A stretch of DNA of 49,822 nucleotides, taken from contig JACABB010000034.1 in the NCBI GenBank assembly GCA_013376985.1, forward strand, positions 1 through 49,822, given 5' to 3'. This stretch comes from Bacteroidales bacterium. Lineage in GTDB: Bacteria > Bacteroidota > Bacteroidia > Bacteroidales > Tenuifilaceae. Shown one piece after another: positions 42,468-49,010 of this stretch. A model generated the notes under the pieces. The model made no database searches, was not told the DNA's origin, and saw only the letters and a list, made by a program, of their open reading frames with translations. A program made the translations under genes and the position numbers. Numbering within the stretch: position 1 is the first letter of the stretch; each line of letters starts with the position of its first letter.

Positions 42468-43271
42468 CTACCTTCCCTCTTCGGACTCCCATCTTCCAGC
42501 CAATCCTTTTTCAACCTCGTTAGTCAATTCCACAAAATCAGCAACGCTTAACCTTTCGGGGCGCTGATTTGTAAACTTTTGGCTTAGCTCAATATTTGGG
42601 AAAACGGAACGGATGGAGTTTCTCAATGTTTTTCGTCTCTGGTTGAATCCGGCTTTCACCACTTTAATGAATAGATCCTCGTTGCAGTTGAGTTTTTTGG
42701 TGCTATTTCTAACAAGCCTAATTACTGCCGATTTTACTTTTGGTGGAGGGGTGAAGACCCCTTCGTTTACGGTGAATAGATATTTAATATCATAATATGC
42801 CTGAAGCAGAACGCTAAGAATTCCATAGGTTTTAGTTCCGGGTTTTTCGCTTATGCGCTGTGCAACCTCCTTTTGAATCATACATACAACCTCATTCACC
42901 ATTTCTCTATTTTCGAGTATCTTAAAGAATATCTGAGATGAAATATTGTATGGTAAGTTCCCAATTATTGCAAGGTTTCCATTGAATTTCTCTGGCAGAT
43001 TAATCTCATTAAAATCACCATGAATCAGATTTGGGGTAAGCGCAGGGATTGTGAGATTAAGATATTCAACCGATTCATCATCAACCTCGGAGGCAAAAAA
43101 CCTTTCGTTGAATTTGGCAATAAGTTCAACGGTTAGTACACCCATGCCAGGGCCAATCTCAAGAACGAAATCGGATTTTTCGGCTGTTAAGCTTTCAACA
43201 ATTTTTGATGCAACCCTTTTATCGTTAAGGAAGTGCTGACCAAGTTTCTTTTTGGGACGTACTGCTGGCAT
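42468..43271 (-). CDS. rsmA: 16S rRNA dimethyladenosine transferase RsmA (KsgA)
   Basis: The 267-residue methyltransferase has the start KKKLGQHFLNDKRVASKIV, the SAM-binding FVLEIGPGMGVLTVELIAKF, the catalytic NLPYNISSQIFFKIL, and VFTPPPKVKSAVIRL. It dimethylates two adenines in helix 45 of 16S rRNA during 30S maturation. The hairpin-rich repeat array begins about 20 bases upstream of its start codon, so its promoter must lie within or beyond repeat sequence. Confidence 0.96.
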   Translation of the reverse strand: MPAVRPKKKLGQHFLNDKRVASKIVESLTAEKSDFVLEIGPGMGVLTVELIAKFNERFFASEVDDESVEYLNLTIPALTPNLIHGDFNEINLPEKFNGNLAIIGNLPYNISSQIFFKILENREMVNEVVCMIQKEVAQRISEKPGTKTYGILSVLLQAYYDIKYLFTVNEGVFTPPPKVKSAVIRLVRNSTKKLNCNEDLFIKVVKAGFNQRRKTLRNSIRSVFPNIELSQKFTNQRPERLSVADFVELTNEVEKGLAGRWESEEGR

Positions 43272-43485
43272 TTTGTTTTGTTTGATGCAAAGGTGGGTTT
43301 TTTCTGGATTGAATGCAATTAAACCTTAGAGTTCCGAACTTTCTAAAAGTTCGGAACTCTTACTTACATCTCTTGCTGCAGAGCAGCCAAATATTTGTAG
43401 AAAGAGAGGTTGAAAAATCATTTAAGGTGCGGAGCACCGAAATATTAATATTCCAAATTATGTTCAAAGAAGATATTACGGTGCC

Positions 43486-43619
43486 CCTGTTCGGCTTAGG
43501 CTCTGCCTAAGTCGATTCTATCCTATCAGGCTATAGCCTGTAAAGATATGTTCGACTAAGGTAGAACCTTAGCCGAACGTTACAAAATAGCCTCAACTTA
43601 GGTTTTAAATTTTTTTAAA
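43486..43619. repeat. Non-repeated hairpin block inside the array
   Basis: This block holds three further palindromes absent from the 421-bp unit: CTTAGGC-TCT-GCCTAAG (43495-43511), CAGGCTATAGCCTG (43527-43540), and a long stem 43550-43578 with CTAAGGT-AGA-ACCTTAG at its centre. Two of the three again use an AGA/TCT triloop, so they belong to the same class of hairpin although the stems differ. Confidence 0.75.
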
Positions 43620-43788
43620 GCTGCAGAGCAGCCAAATATTTGTAGAAAGAGAGATTGAAAAATCATTCAAGGTGCAGAGCACCGAAATATTAATGCCCCA
43701 ATTTATGTTCAGAAAATTATTACGGTGCTCTGCACCTAGAATTCTGTGGTGGTGAATAGTTCTACAAATATTGAGGTGCTCTGCACCT
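43620..43788. repeat. REPIN-like inverted hairpin pair, type A, copy in unit 2
   Basis: It opens with GCTGC-AGA-GCAGC followed by CAAATATTTGTAGAA and closes, on the other strand, with AGGTGC-AGA-GCACCT followed by CAATATTTGTAGAA. Between them lies a second inverted pair of GGTGC triloop hairpins. The same 169-base layout recurs at 44042-44210. Confidence 0.7.
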
Positions 43789-43841
43789 ATTTGATGCTAG
43801 CGGGTTAACCATTCATCAAAGCCATAAATGGCAAAACCCGA

Positions 43842-43960
43842 AATCCCAGAGGGATTAAATGTTTATAGGGAATATTTTACCTTGAAGGGGTTCGACCCGT
43901 ATTAGGGTCGGATGTGCATTTAGCATTGTGTTTCTATAAACATGCAACCTCTCCGAGGTC
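43842..43960. repeat. REPIN-like inverted hairpin pair, type B, copy in unit 2
   Basis: AATCCC-AGA-GGGATT is followed by ATGTTTATAG. At the far end, on the other strand, a GAxCTC-type hairpin with loop GGA is followed by GCATGTTTATAG. The centre carries CGACCC...GGGTCG. The same 119-base layout is at 44264-44382, where the outer base pair of the closing hairpin is restored. Confidence 0.7.
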
Positions 43961-44041
43961 AGGGATTTTTCTGGATTGGATGCAATTAAACCATAGAGTT
44001 CCAAACTTTCTAAAAGTTCGGAACTCTTACTTACATCTTTT

Positions 44042-44210
44042 GCTGCAGAGCAGCCAAATATTTGTAGAAAGAGAGATTGAAAAATCATTCAAGGTGCAGA
44101 GCACCGAAATATTAATGCCCCAATTTATGTTCAGAAAATTATTACGGTGCTCTGCACCTAGAATTCTGTGGTGGTGAATAGTTCTACAAATATTGAGGTG
44201 CTCTGCACCT
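44042..44210. repeat. REPIN-like inverted hairpin pair, type A, copy in unit 3
   Basis: Hairpins are at 44042-44054 (loop AGA), 44093-44105 (AGA), 44146-44158 (TCT) and 44196-44210 (TCT). The first two face one way and the last two the other, each outer hairpin followed by an A/T-rich tail containing ATATTTGTAG or ATATTTGTAGAA. A third copy with the same layout occupies about 44463-44632. Confidence 0.7.
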
Positions 44211-44263
44211 ATTTGATGCTAGCGGGTTAACCATTCATCAAAGCCATAAATGGCAAAACCCGA

Positions 44264-44382
44264 AATCCCAGAGGGATTATATGTTTATAGGGAATAATTT
44301 ACCATGAGGGGGTTCGACCCGTATACGGGTCGGATGTGCGTTTAGCATTGTGTTTCTATAAACATGCGACCTCTCCGAGGTC
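44264..44382. repeat. REPIN-like inverted hairpin pair, type B, copy in unit 3
   Basis: The terminal hairpins are AATCCC-AGA-GGGATT (44264-44278) and GACCTC-TCC-GAGGTC (44368-44382). Next to them ATGTTTATAG (44281-44290) pairs with CTATAAACAT (44356-44365). In the middle an 18-bp perfect palindrome (44315-44332) reads CGACCCGTATACGGGTCG. Confidence 0.7.
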
Positions 44383-44417
44383 AGGGGTTTTTCTGGATTG
44401 GATGCAATTAAACCCCA

Positions 44418-44448
44418 GAGTTCCGAACTTTCTAAAAGTTCGGAACTC
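44418..44448. repeat. 14-bp triloop hairpin at the unit junction
   Basis: GAGTTCCGAACTTT (44418-44431) and AAAGTTCGGAACTC (44435-44448) pair perfectly around CTA. Copies are at the two other junctions (about 43329-43359 and 43996-44026, the latter with one mismatch). Confidence 0.8.
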
Positions 44449-44647
44449 TTAGTACCTCTCTTGCTGCAGAGCAGCCAAATATTTGTAGAAAGAGAGGTTG
44501 AAAAACCATTTAAGGTGCGGAGCACCGAAATATTAATTCCCCAATTTATGTTCGAAGAAGATATTACGGTGCTCTGCACCTAGAATTCTGGGGTGGTGAT
44601 TAGTTCTACAAATATTGAGGTGCTCTGCACCTATTTGATGCTACCAA

Positions 44648-44890
44648 TGATTGTTTTTTGTTTGCCAAAATCTCAGGCGTGCAAAAAACAGCTGTTGAAA
44701 CGTTGCCTTGAATTTTAGAAGCTAAAAAACGGTTGTTTTTCGGTTGCCAAAATCTCAGGCGAGTAAAAAACAACTGTTGAAGCCTTGCCCTGAATTTTAG
44801 AAGCTAAAAAACGGTGGTTTTTGGTTTGCCAGAAACTCAGGCGAGTAAAAAACCGTGCTTTAAACCATGCCCTAAGTTCTGGGGTAAGGT
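44648..44890. repeat. 82-bp tandem repeat, about three copies
   Basis: TTGCC followed by an AAAATCTCAGGCG-like stretch starts at 44662, 44744 and 44826, an exact 82-base period; the third copy is diverged and incomplete. Within a unit AAAATCTCAGGC can pair imperfectly with GCCTTGAATTTT, and AAAAAAC/GTTTTT runs flank the junctions. No reading frame is conserved across units. The 70 bases after it, up to the gene end at 44959, show nothing. Confidence 0.75.
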
Positions 44891-44958
44891 TTAATAAATC
44901 AATATATCTTTAATTTTGAATTTGTGCGGTCAAAGTTTACATATTCGCTTTAAAATAT

Positions 44959-45546
44959 TTAATTTCCATTCTTATTTGAGACGACTATCCATTTCGAAAG
45001 ATTTGATATTGTAAAATATTCATGAATAGTTCTTAATAACCTTCTTGCTTGAAAATTTATCGAAGCAGAATGTCTTATATCTTTATTTTTCATAGTTAAA
45101 TAGTGTGTTCCAACACCTTCAATATTTGATACCAAAGAAACTTTCTCAGTATAATCGTTTAACTCATATTCCTCAATTATTCTAATTGAATTTTTTTCGC
45201 AGATATAAATAATATGATCTGGATCCCTCAAGCATGCATACAGGCAATTAATTTCTTGTAAAACTTTCTCTGGAAGAAAATCATAATATTTATAGTACAG
45301 TTTAGATAATCTTTGTATCTTATTGTCTAATTGATCAAAATCTATCGGTTTTGAGATTTGTAAATTCGCCAAATCACTAAGTTCATCACAGATTTCATCT
45401 CTTATATAAAAATATCGATCAATTATTTTGGAGCTAATTGCTTTTTGATATTTAAATCTTTCTAAAAAATAATTGTATATTAATCCTAATAATCCGCCTA
45501 AAATAAGTGTAATTACGGGAAGTATTGCTACAAATAAATTTTCCAT
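44959..45546 (-). CDS. Membrane-anchored protein of unknown function
   Basis: The 195-residue protein starts with one strong membrane helix (VAILPVITLILGGLLGLIYNYFLERF, about residues 6-32), followed by a soluble, mostly helical domain rich in Tyr, Ile and Asp (KIIDRYFYIRDEICDELSDLANLQ, LYYKYYDFLPEKVLQEINCLYACL). No catalytic motif is visible. Composition is more AT-rich than the surrounding core genes. It lies 166 bases downstream of the DUF4062-type gene on the same strand and beside the repeat array, so it may be a horizontally acquired partner of that gene; this is inference. Confidence 0.55.
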   Translation of the reverse strand: MENLFVAILPVITLILGGLLGLIYNYFLERFKYQKAISSKIIDRYFYIRDEICDELSDLANLQISKPIDFDQLDNKIQRLSKLYYKYYDFLPEKVLQEINCLYACLRDPDHIIYICEKNSIRIIEEYELNDYTEKVSLVSNIEGVGTHYLTMKNKDIRHSASINFQARRLLRTIHEYFTISNLSKWIVVSNKNGN

Positions 45547-45688
45547 ATTAATTAGTTTTAAATGATAAATTCAAAAAATTATAGTCGTTTTTAAAATAAT
45601 GTGCCATAGCATCGTAGTATTTAAATGTTAGTTTATTCATCTTTTTCATTCTTTTTATTTACCCTGCTCATTTGCCCTTATAATTTTT

Positions 45689-45702
45689 AACACGTGTTGG
45701 GC
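45689..45702. other. attC-like core near the DUF4062 gene stop (weak)
   Basis: AACACGTGTT (45689-45698) is a perfect palindrome overlapping GTTGGGC (45696-45702), which fits the GTTRRRY core of integron attC sites. On the coding strand of the neighbouring gene the core reads GCCCAAC ten bases past the stop, where a cassette's attC would begin. No partner core was found within the gap 45547-45712 and no integrase is present, so this is only suggestive. Confidence 0.2.
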
Positions 45703-45712
45703 GTTCGTTGTT

Positions 45713-46579
45713 TTATTCATAATTGTTTTTAACCAAATAGTCAGCTAACTTATAACCTTTCATAGTCAGAGAAAAAACTTCGCCTCTCGTTCCGTTATCT
45801 TTAATTAAGTCATAAGCAAATAACTGCTTAAATACAGTTTCCCAAGTAGCCCATGTCTTCGGTGAATTATCATCATTAAGATTATTACCATTTGTTTGTA
45901 TATCAAAACCATCTAAATAACGAACTTTAATTACAACACCTTTGGGGTCTTTGGAAGTTTTCACTACTAATTCTTTTGATTCTTGAAAAAGCATTTCGAC
46001 AAAACCAAATTCATTGTCTTCATCAGTTATGTCTCCAATAAATGATAAATCTTCCTTACGAAAGTACTCGTCTTTATTTATGATAATTCCTAATTGTTGG
46101 CTTAGTTTATTATTAAATTCTTCAATTGATTCGTAGGTTTCAATTAAACCATTCTTTTCACATTCTTTTTTAAATATTTGTAACAAATTATATTGTTCAG
46201 GGTCAATGCTATCAGGATGAACTGGTGCTTTTGAAAAATATAACATTGCTGGCTTACCAGAATTCACATGTTTAGTTATTTCTTCAACTGTACCACTTAT
46301 TGATTCTCCAGTATGAGAGCCTATTCTTGTCCAGAAAATACCAATTAACAAATCACTAGAGTCTAAAAGTTGTTTATTAATAATTTCTTGTGGTCTGTTT
46401 CCCATTTTAGGTGCTGAATTGGTTTCCCAACCTATTGGAAGTAATAAAATTTTCTTGTCGTAGGAATGAATTGAATTCCAGTTATGAACAATTTCTCTAG
46501 CGAGATTTCTTTCTCTTGTCACATCGCCAGGTGATGCAATGATTACTTGAAAAACTTTTGCTTGATATGCCATATCCAT
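45713..46579 (-). CDS. DUF4062-type (TIR-like fold) protein with C-terminal winged-helix-like region
   Basis: The 288-residue protein (an alternative ATG at 46573 removes two residues) has an N-terminal domain (about 5-125) resembling DUF4062. Marks are VFQVIIASPGDVTRERNLAREIV, DSSDLLIGIFWTRIGSHTG and SGTVEEITKHVNSGKPAMLYFS. The Glu99/Glu100 pair after SGT sits where TIR-like enzymes keep their catalytic glutamate. The C-terminus (about 225-288: WETVFKQLFAYDLIKDNGTRGEVFSLTMKGYKLADYL) looks like a winged helix. DUF4062 domains occur in bacterial conflict systems and STAND proteins. An NAD-hydrolase effector or nucleotide sensor is plausible but unproven. It is AT-rich and flanked by repeats. 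Confidence 0.68.
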   Translation of the reverse strand: MDMAYQAKVFQVIIASPGDVTRERNLAREIVHNWNSIHSYDKKILLLPIGWETNSAPKMGNRPQEIINKQLLDSSDLLIGIFWTRIGSHTGESISGTVEEITKHVNSGKPAMLYFSKAPVHPDSIDPEQYNLLQIFKKECEKNGLIETYESIEEFNNKLSQQLGIIINKDEYFRKEDLSFIGDITDEDNEFGFVEMLFQESKELVVKTSKDPKGVVIKVRYLDGFDIQTNGNNLNDDNSPKTWATWETVFKQLFAYDLIKDNGTRGEVFSLTMKGYKLADYLVKNNYE

Positions 46580-46605
46580 TTTTTTTGTTATACAATTACA
46601 CCGAA

Positions 46606-46738
46606 CTCATTCCTCTTTTAGTACCCCACCAAATTAAACAAAAATACCAAATCATCAAACAAACCCTTCTATCTCCCAAACCAACCCAAACGTTCCCTTA
46701 CCAAATATTTCCATATCTTAGCAATCAAAACAATTCAG
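46606..46738. other. Strongly G-poor gap between two divergent genes
   Basis: About 130 bases of the plus strand contain only a handful of G while C and A abound (ACCCCACCAAATTAAAC, CCCAAACCAACCCAAACG). The gap separates the DUF4062 gene from the flippase-like gene. No open frame, hairpin or good promoter box stands out; TATCTTAG at 46714-46721 is at best a partial -7 box. Confidence 0.6.
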
Positions 46739-46739
46739 T

Positions 46740-47693
46740 TTGCGAAGGCCAATTCAAATAGGGTTAAGGGTTGCGATTGCGGTTGCGGCATACGCTTTTA
46801 TTGCTGTTAAGATTGGCTCATCGGATATTGTGAAGAGTTTGGATGCTTTTACCGATACCTTTTTCACAGGAAACTATTTATGGTTTTTGGTTGTGCTGCT
46901 TTTAATGCCTGTGGTTTGGGCTTTGGAGGCGGTTAAGTGGAGGAAAGCATTATCGCCATTTACAGATATTTCGTTTCTGAGCAGCTGGCGTTCCGTTTGG
47001 TACGGTGTGGTTGCGGGTCAATTAACACCAAATCGGATTGGTGAGCCAGTGGGTAGAATTGCACTAATCGATCCCGATGTTCGAGGAAGAGCCGCTGTGG
47101 CTGCTATTTGGTGTAGCTTATCGCAAAATGCGATAACAGTACTTTTCGGATTTATAAGCGTTGCATGGTGGGTATTAGCTGTAAAGCAAGCGATATTCTC
47201 GCAAGCCATCTACTTTTGGCTACTGATTCTAATAGTACTCCTTTGGGTGTTAGCTGTACTAATTGCCATTACAAATGTGGGCAGGATATCATCGCGCATC
47301 GAGAGGATTGGCTGGGTGAAAAGCGCATTAAAAGGCGAGAGTTTACGGATTGGTTACCAACCCTCAATATCAATTTATATAATTGCCATAAGCGCGTTGC
47401 GATACGCTGTTTTTTCATCGCAATATGTTATTCTACTTAGGATATTTGGCACTCATGCCGATGCCATAAATATTTATGCTGCCGTGGGATTAACATACCT
47501 TTTTAGCAGCTTTATTCCATCATTCTCAGCCAGCGAGGTGGGAATTCGTGCAGGCTTTGCAACTTGGTTTGTTGGCATGTTGGGTGGCGACCCTGTTGGA
47601 GTTGCTGCCGCATCGCTTCTGCTATGGTTGCTTAACTTGGGTGTGCCGGCGATGATTGGGGCGTGGTTTGGGTGGAGGAAGGAAGATGCTTAA
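46740..47693 (+). CDS. Flippase-like membrane protein (LPG synthase transmembrane / UPF0104 family)
   Basis: The 317-residue protein has about eight membrane helices. Family marks are WALEAVKWRKAL, VWYGVVAGQLTPNRIGEPVGRIALI, and SSFIPSFSASEVGIRAGFATWF, as in the transmembrane half of MprF and related lipid flippases. It lacks the soluble aminoacyl-transferase domain, so it is a stand-alone flippase-like protein. The start is TTG at 46740: an in-frame TAG at 46719 and no ATG before residue ~57 leave no better choice. The substrate is unknown. Confidence 0.85.
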   Translation: MRRPIQIGLRVAIAVAAYAFIAVKIGSSDIVKSLDAFTDTFFTGNYLWFLVVLLLMPVVWALEAVKWRKALSPFTDISFLSSWRSVWYGVVAGQLTPNRIGEPVGRIALIDPDVRGRAAVAAIWCSLSQNAITVLFGFISVAWWVLAVKQAIFSQAIYFWLLILIVLLWVLAVLIAITNVGRISSRIERIGWVKSALKGESLRIGYQPSISIYIIAISALRYAVFSSQYVILLRIFGTHADAINIYAAVGLTYLFSSFIPSFSASEVGIRAGFATWFVGMLGGDPVGVAAASLLLWLLNLGVPAMIGAWFGWRKEDA

Positions 47694-47696
47694 TAA

Positions 47697-47876
47697 TTTG
47701 AAAATTGGAGAATTTGGGGAATTTGAAAATTGGGGAATTTGAAAATTTGATAATTAATGAATAACCAATAACCCAATAACTGAATAACCCAATAACCAAT
47801 AACCCAATAACCAATAACCCAATAACCAGTAACTAATAACCCAATAACCAGTAACTAATAACCCAATAACCAACAA
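47697..47876. repeat. Low-complexity direct repeats before the aminotransferase gene
   Basis: From 47697 to 47750 GGGGAATTTGAAAATT-type words repeat. From about 47760 to 47872 there are roughly fifteen alternating 7/8-base units (AATAACC, AATAACCC, with AGTAACT variants). The tract ends four bases before the ATG at 47880, so it takes the place of the normal ribosome-binding and promoter-proximal region. Copy number could change by slippage. Confidence 0.85.
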
Positions 47877-47879
47877 TCA

Positions 47880-49010
47880 ATGAGTACTTACACAAAACCC
47901 ACAGGTTCCTACATCAGCTACTTCAGTAATATGGTTAAGCAAAGGGGTGGGATAAATCTGGCGCAGGGGATTCCGGGGTTTAATCCGCCTGGCGAGCTTA
48001 TTAACGCATTAAAAGGTTGTGTCGATATGAATGTTCATCAGTATGCTCCGGGGATGGGGAATTTAAATCTGATTGAGCAGATTGCAACCGAATATCGGGT
48101 TAAGGCTGAGAATTTACTTATTGTTCAGGGAGCAACCGAGGCGCTATCGTTGGTATATACCTATATCAACAGGAAATTGAATGGAGATTTTGCGGTGCTA
48201 TCGTTCGAACCAGCTTATGAGAGCTACCTACAGCTACCAAAAATCTTTGGGCAAAAGTTTATACACTACCCATTAAACACGGATTACACGTTCGATTATG
48301 ATGATCTTTACCTAACAATCAAGCAAAAGGGTGTAAAGCTTATTTTCCTTAGCTCACCCGGAAATCCTTTCGGGAAGATATGGAGTAGGAGCGAGGTTGA
48401 TAGTTTGATATCCATATCGAACCAGCTGGGCGTATACATCGTATTCGATGCTGTTTATGAGCAGCTGTACTTTAACGAATCTCCTTACATCCCTATTGAT
48501 CAATTATCTCCCAACCTGTTTATTGTAAACAGCTTTTCCAAGATGCTTTGCATTACCGGGTGGCGGATTGGTTATCTTATTTCGCACGAAAGCCACATGG
48601 AGGGGATTAAATCCGTTCACGATTACATTGGACTTTGCGCCCCATCGTTGCTGCAACATGCTTTGGTGGAGTATCTTGGGAAGAGCAATTTTGCAAAGGA
48701 GTTTACAACCTCTTTCCGTGAGAATGTGAAACGATCATTCAATATCCTTGTTGAAACTCTAACGGAGTTAGGATTCGAAATCCCTCCAATCCAAGGTGGG
48801 TGCTTTGTGTGGGCTAAACTACCGAATGGGTGGACGGATGGTTTCGAATTCGCATCGAGGCTTTACGATGAGCAATCGGTAGCCGTTATTCCGGGGGAAC
48901 ATTTTAGCGATGGGAAATCGGATTGGATTCGCTTTAACGTTGCTAGGCCGGAGGAGGATATTGTTAAGGCATGTGAGAGGATTAGGGTGTTTATGGATAA
49001 AGAGATTTAA
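47880..49010 (+). CDS. PLP-dependent aminotransferase (class I/II, methionine/kynurenine aminotransferase-like)
   Basis: The 376-residue fold-type I enzyme starts FSNMVKQRGGINLAQGIPGFNPP, typical of the YbdL/kynurenine-aminotransferase branch. The PLP-binding Lys221 is in NSFSKMLCITGWRIGYL, and the C-terminal arginine in WIRFNVAR binds the substrate carboxylate. Relatives transfer the amino group of methionine or aromatic amino acids to 2-oxo acids; the true substrate is not certain. Codons are more GC-rich than in the DUF4062 island, as in a core gene. Its upstream region is a repeat tract. Confidence 0.9.
   Translation: MSTYTKPTGSYISYFSNMVKQRGGINLAQGIPGFNPPGELINALKGCVDMNVHQYAPGMGNLNLIEQIATEYRVKAENLLIVQGATEALSLVYTYINRKLNGDFAVLSFEPAYESYLQLPKIFGQKFIHYPLNTDYTFDYDDLYLTIKQKGVKLIFLSSPGNPFGKIWSRSEVDSLISISNQLGVYIVFDAVYEQLYFNESPYIPIDQLSPNLFIVNSFSKMLCITGWRIGYLISHESHMEGIKSVHDYIGLCAPSLLQHALVEYLGKSNFAKEFTTSFRENVKRSFNILVETLTELGFEIPPIQGGCFVWAKLPNGWTDGFEFASRLYDEQSVAVIPGEHFSDGKSDWIRFNVARPEEDIVKACERIRVFMDKEI

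Follow-up and report, generated by a model that had tools for sequence, protein, structure and literature searches.

Transposases of class 2 (TnpA_REP), also called REP-associated tyrosine transposases (RAYTs, where REP stands for repetitive extragenic palindrome), carry the signature Y-x3-NP, and GTAG or GTGG is found at the 5′ foot of their hairpins (PMC6006769). TnpA_Y1 subclass 1.2 has the signature Y-x3-Q-x2-HH and is entered as "no" for REP in Table 1 of the same study (Quentin et al. 2018, PMC6006769); the target of these enzymes was open, as that description gives neither insertion sequence (IS) properties nor REPs. The ends of IS200/IS605 elements are described without terminal inverted repeats (PMC2817692), and IS200/IS605 and REP enzymes choose the cut site via a tetranucleotide beside the hairpin (PMC8266576). 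TIRtrons/TIRYT comprise RAYT-type proteins and longer terminal repeats, some with the consensus GGGGWSAS (Di Nocera et al. 2013, PMC3733652). Here we analyzed a 49,822-nucleotide (nt) stretch of a Bacteroidales bacterium (Tenuifilaceae; GCA_013376985.1, contig JACABB010000034.1, positions 1 to 49,822), termed the window, which is part of contig C28 of a 5.26-Mb genome in 85 contigs (G000). It contains a hairpin-packed repeat array between rsmA and an orphan gene. We consider it probable that local amplification produced this array as a mosaic of gene-less elements resembling REPINs (REP doublets forming hairpins), the core of which, REPIN1, is like the ends of a Y1/HUH subclass-1.2 transposase unit minus the gene.

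Structure of the array at rsmA

With hairpins defined by a 5-bp stem, a 3- to 4-nt loop, and a minimum of 3 GC pairs, limits that were chosen after inspection of the sequence, 21 hairpins were counted in 43295-44643, compared to a mean of 0.6 and a maximum of 3 in 500 dinucleotide shuffles. The 91 stretches of the same length elsewhere in the window contained 0.5 hairpins on average and at most 2. One 422-nt unit folded as single-stranded DNA reached −85.7 kcal/mol, whereas 100 shuffles had a mean of −42.7 kcal/mol (z −9.5). Tandem Repeats Finder reported a 422-bp unit present in 2.4 copies at 43620-44643, and self-comparison placed the beginnings of repeat copies at 43295, 43962, and 44383, the later ones being spaced by 421-422 bp. 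The sequence-only reading of this stretch had described an array of 421-bp units with about ten palindromes each. Such an array does exist, nine palindromes being counted in the unit beginning at 43962, and its copies are unequal. Its exclusion of clustered regularly interspaced short palindromic repeats (CRISPR) was also borne out: the units repeat over their whole 421-422 bp, and short repeats with unique spacers are absent.

In a complete REPIN1, two halves of opposite orientation together hold four hairpins of 13 nt with a 5-bp stem and a 3-nt loop. Each half contains, in this order, an outer hairpin, a 9-nt linker, the tag GTAG, a spacer, and an inner hairpin, and the tags point inwards. 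Four REPIN1 copies are present in the array. A hairpin followed after 9 or 10 nt by RTAG occurs at 12 sites in the whole window, 11 of which lie in the array, all with a spacing of 9. The parts of the array are as follows.

43295..43327, unstranded: rsmA 5′-flank DNA, near copies of which open the units at 43962 and 44383 (self matches 43962-43997 and 44384-44414)
43328..43360, unstranded: hairpin A copy 0, a 33-nt palindrome
43375..43484, unstranded: REPIN1 copy 0, right half truncated
43489..43578, unstranded: family C, an unrelated 90-bp imperfect palindrome after copy 0
43620..43787, unstranded: REPIN1 copy 1, with outer hairpin-9 nt-GTAG, inner hairpin, and mirror image
43800..43836, unstranded: linker with its own stem, leading from REPIN1 to type B
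43837..43964, unstranded: type-B copy 1, in which a central hairpin lies between two hairpins of opposite orientation, each followed after 9 nt by ATAG
43995..44027, unstranded: hairpin A copy 2
44042..44209, unstranded: REPIN1 copy 2, with the same sequence as copy 1 over 168 nt
44222..44258, unstranded: linker, second copy
44259..44386, unstranded: type-B copy 2, 94% to copy 1
44417..44449, unstranded: hairpin A copy 3
44463..44631, unstranded: REPIN1 copy 3, followed by a right flank also found in the sister species G003

The first repeat copy (43295-43484) is thus shortened and followed by the different palindrome of family C, copy 1 (from 43620) has no hairpin A, and copies 2 (43962-44221) and 3 (44383-44643) contain it; type-B segments separate copy 2 from both copy 1 and copy 3. 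Hairpin A has no RTAG tag and often shows AAACC..TA ahead and TTA behind. A site in G003 matches type-B copy 1 over 128 bp, and the family C palindrome was found in no other retrieved locus of the own genome, loci overlapping the array aside. Three or more palindrome families, together with rsmA-flanking DNA, make up the mosaic of the unit. Two open reading frames (ORFs) inside it, of 87 and 100 amino acids (aa), are putative chance ORFs, and an Rfam search of the window gave no family at the gathering score.

The array is flanked by rsmA (42468-43271, minus strand, Pfam RrnaAD) and the orphan gene (44959-45546, minus strand, no Pfam family). Directly past it, at 44646-44891, an 82-bp repeat is present in three diverged copies, which G003 has too. 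Farther away, at 47695-47881, short-period tandem repeats with the units AATTTGAA and AATAACCC lie just ahead of an ORF at 47880.

Copies in the genome and a matching transposase gene

The pattern REP1 (TCTACRAATATTNNGGTGC), searched with up to 3 mismatches, was found at 31 sites of the genome, while its reversed control gave 0. Seven of the sites are located in the window, 10 at a transposase gene on contig C36, and 14 on eight other contigs. REPIN1-like inverted doublets without a gene gave full-length matches on C27 and C85 and partial ones on C67 and other contigs. Hairpin A gave 60 strand matches (control, 0), which were counted as 33 places, and the array accounts for 3 of these; no linked gene was identified at the 33 places. 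Two hairpin A copies lie ~2 kb from a RAYT gene on C1, but a role of hairpin A as an end of any of the six Y1 genes of this genome was unsupported, since it is the nearest flank of none. The type-B pattern had 16 matches. Five of them (window, 4; C8, 1) retain the head CTATAAACAT; the other 11, 9 of them on C25, C41, and C45, carry CTATTCACAT, the variant beside the transposase gene on C27. These results show that the components of the array are members of dispersed families. The sequence-only reading had set a dispersed element family against a local tandem duplication. Unit and hairpin searches support the former, but since the array was also duplicated locally, the either/or was a false choice. 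Further tandem runs occur in the same genome, with periods of 51 bp at the C36 gene and 85 bp on C25, and on C85 a pair of copies is spaced by 473 bp. In other genomes, too, tagged hairpins form tandem runs, at G036:C16:375024-376073 (256-bp period) and, beside a gene, at G019:C351:14377-15077 (135 bp).

The statement that the window holds no transposase of the kind that moves REPs was correct: the six Y1_Tnp genes of the genome are all on other contigs, and palindromes adjoin each of them. One (C1:118556-118738) is a class-2 RAYT according to NCBIfam (100.7 bits, cut-off 80). The other five carry Y-x3-Q-x2-HH, and four of these pass the NCBIfam IS200 model, C1:380210 being below its cut-off. 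The proposed search for an HUH gene led to C36:16874-17218, the matching gene, which has runs of REPIN1 hairpins on both sides. The C36 protein contains the motifs DHLH, WQ, and YILSQEEHH and has Y-x3-Q but no Y-x3-NP; with the REP_Tyr_transpos model it scored 29 bits (cut-off 80). H55, H57, W95, Y115, Q119, H122, and H123 were invariant in 45 aligned proteins, and in an alignment with the transposases of ISDra2 and IS608, the closest solved relatives, H55, H57, Y115, and Q119 correspond to the HUH motif, the tyrosine, and the glutamine. Judged by Y-x3-Q-x2-HH, HUH, and WQ, the C36 gene is a predicted member of TnpA_Y1 subclass 1.2 and no classical RAYT. The five subclass-1.2 genes are not near-identical copies, sharing 27-37% identity with C36.

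Dispersal of the flank hairpins was tested for the genes on C36, C27, C17, and C56. The downstream flank of the C17 gene had matches on four other contigs. For type B, the nearest gene of the own genome is that on C27, with which the ATCCC stem is common while loop and linker differ. Better matches to the type-B element are found at transposase flanks of relatives than at those of its own genome, and in G002 and G025 type-B hairpins adjoin transposase genes 49% identical to C36. Type B may be served here by the C27 gene or be orphaned, and we lean towards the latter.

Flanks of related transposase genes and occurrence in other genomes

A contig search yielded 311 relatives of the C36 protein, the best 80 of which were kept. 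Together with the six genes of the own genome these gave 86 loci; after five had been dropped because of short flanks or a missing stop codon and the class-2 RAYT had been left out, 80 remained. As these loci are mutually related, they cannot be counted as independent, and examples had been viewed before the hairpin limits were fixed. Within 100 nt downstream, 114 hairpins were found at 70 of the 80 loci (3.6 in shuffles), and within 100 nt upstream, 93 hairpins at 59 loci (2.0 in shuffles); at 50 loci hairpins were present on both sides of the gene. By comparison, 1200 control windows from the longer loci among these contained 62 hairpins, against 62.2 in shuffles. The two flanks of the same gene resembled each other in inverted orientation with a mean score of 18.67 vs 11.64 for permuted pairs (0 of 10000). 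Of the 130 outer hairpins in 130-nt flanks, 58 were followed by an RTAG beginning at +10 and 81 by one beginning at +6 to +13; a distance of 9 nt between the hairpin and the (A/G)TAG tag was the commonest arrangement. The Y motif was present in 80 of 81 loci, a figure that is partly the product of selection, QEEHHKKK being one of the six search peptides. REPIN1 hairpins match the flanks of the C36 gene, and related Bacteroidota genes often have inverted tagged hairpins of this kind as flanks. The genes of several relatives bear other stems. In the open-licence literature we found nothing reporting palindromes for subclass 1.2, and we read the flank hairpins as a correction of the published "no REP" rather than as grounds for exclusion from the subclass.

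The test in other genomes used one pattern derived from Chryseobacterium. In G029 it had 15 matches, 13 of them away from the gene, including five inverted pairs 133-135 nt apart; the tags of these pairs point outwards, in contrast to those of REPIN1. Two Ignavibacteria genomes had 19 and 21 matches in all, and G035 had no match to this pattern. In G036 (Niabella) 50 matches were found without the stem seen beside its gene, and they are therefore no test of the dispersal of that stem.

Origin of the array and comparison with known systems

In the sister species G003, whose rsmA is 92% identical, the corresponding site carries a single REPIN1 and shares the right flank, and exactly at the position of hairpin A there is a different palindromic element with the ends GAGGCTGTCT...AGACAGCCTC (L187, about 2335-2485). 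In G001, G002, and G004, which belong to the same genus, neither a REPIN1 head nor a triloop hairpin was found in 700 nt on that side of rsmA, and the stretch runs straight into a membrane-protein reading frame; in the window, 43272-46740 holds the array, the orphan gene, a gene with a sub-threshold DUF4062 match, and then an LPG_synthase_TM gene at 46740. This distribution suggests that REPIN1 arrived beside rsmA before the split from G003 and that the duplication filled with type B followed later.

By analogy with IS200/IS605 and TnpA_REP, the enzyme would bind the hairpins in single-stranded DNA, pick the cut site with the help of the RTAG/CTAY tag, and cut with its tyrosine, so that hairpin-bounded DNA without the gene could be moved or copied. 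Because the hairpins are palindromic, RTAG on the 3′ side in one strand is CTAY on the 5′ side in the other, and the tetranucleotide-guided choice of the cut site may carry over to REPIN1. Recombination or template switching would then have duplicated in tandem the segment that had reached rsmA, with type B where the copies join. We infer that the array elements are mobile.

Several observations weigh against this explanation. Strict REP1 occurs in only 5 of 27 genomes of the family, though 20 of 27 have some C36 homologue. G003 has REP1 copies without a close C36 homologue (best, 35%), and at its site orthologous to C36 (L226, G003:C9; flank 94% identical) there are 11 strict REP1 matches while the gene is absent; both a loss by deletion between repeats and a gain in the own genome are possible. 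Among the five subclass-1.2 genes of the own genome, only those on C36 and C27 show the tag, and the C56 ends match only at their own gene. The Chryseobacterium-derived pattern had just 1-2 matches away from the gene in three of four Chryseobacterium genomes (G027, G028, G030) and in two Flavobacterium genomes matched only at the gene. Of the type-B pairs in G002 (L269-L284), 15 of 16 were aligned, and all lie inside a longer, near-identical dispersed repeat beginning GGTTATTCGAC, with which they may have spread. Finally, no clean empty site was obtained; in the one attempt, with the C85 copies, the flanks matched different G003 contigs and reached contig ends.

The identity of REPIN1 copies 1 and 2 and the lack of an array as such in G003 would also fit a mere local tandem duplication of a palindrome-rich spacer, the likeness to transposase flanks then coming from commonplace hairpins. 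However, further copies of the 27-nt tagged hairpin are present at the C36 gene and on eight other contigs (reversed control, 0), and its tag spacing is common to many transposase flanks. The dispersal of REP1 largely refutes this idea as a full account, which we regard as improbable, although it holds for the last step. A classical REPIN of the genome's own class-2 RAYT would be the textbook case, and the C1 gene is a RAYT by NCBIfam, but its flanks show other palindromes, around GCACGGATTGCAAATCCGTGC, and none of the tagged hairpins of the array; the nearby hairpin A copies are a weak link at most, and this origin appears highly improbable.

The array might instead be kept for an RNA or DNA-topology effect at rsmA, for instance because it reduces read-through from the orphan gene, with the transposase accounting only for its origin. 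As both neighboring genes are on the minus strand, read-through would cross the array, and 9 terminator-like sites were found vs 1.5 in shuffles. These matches, however, are hairpins followed by AT-rich linkers without solid T runs, and with one copy in the sister species and none in the three other members of the genus, we consider such a role unlikely. Ordinary single terminators were ruled out on structure.

Beyond the preferred explanation of the array as an amplified mosaic of gene-less elements, we incline, with less confidence, to the view that Bacteroidota possess a REPtron-like system of separate origin from classical RAYTs. In it, each IS200-like subclass-1.2 transposase would have a separate family of triloop mini-hairpins with a 5-bp stem, a 9-nt AT-rich linker, and RTAG, arranged as inverted doublets, and gene-less copies of these would spread through the genome and repeatedly be amplified in tandem. 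The flanking hairpins, with a predicted stem, spacer, and tag, are a concrete candidate substrate for these enzymes and account for one source of intergenic palindromes in Bacteroidota. More than one origin of REP-type systems from single-strand transposases is thereby suggested.

The locus agrees with subclass 1.2 in Y-x3-Q-x2-HH, HUH, a length of ~150 aa with a C-terminal tail, low copy number, and occurrence in Bacteroidota, and differs in the frequent flanking hairpins and their dispersed copies. IS200/IS605 (subclass 1.1) include the closest solved relatives, and four of the five genes pass the IS200 model, whereas here one gene copy has inverted double-hairpin flanks on both sides. A Y1 gene between inverted repeats is also found in TIRtrons/TIRYT, but tagged mini-hairpins are the feature here. 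Inverted palindromes flanking the gene, gene-less doublets elsewhere, and several families per genome are common to RAYT/REPIN systems and this one; in the array, however, the hairpin is a triloop with a 5-bp stem, RTAG follows on its 3′ side after 9 nt (+10 in 11 of 11 tagged hairpins), and copy numbers are in the tens, not hundreds. With Y-x3-Q for Y-x3-NP and this position of RTAG, it is by definition no RAYT/REP system. The likeness to REPINs and bacterial interspersed mosaic elements (BIMEs) proposed at the outset holds for inverted tagged hairpin pairs that are dispersed and linked to a Y1/HUH gene, but not for the family, which is distinct. The array works like a REPIN/REPtron and is best filed among the gene-less elements of subclass-1.2 Y1 transposases.
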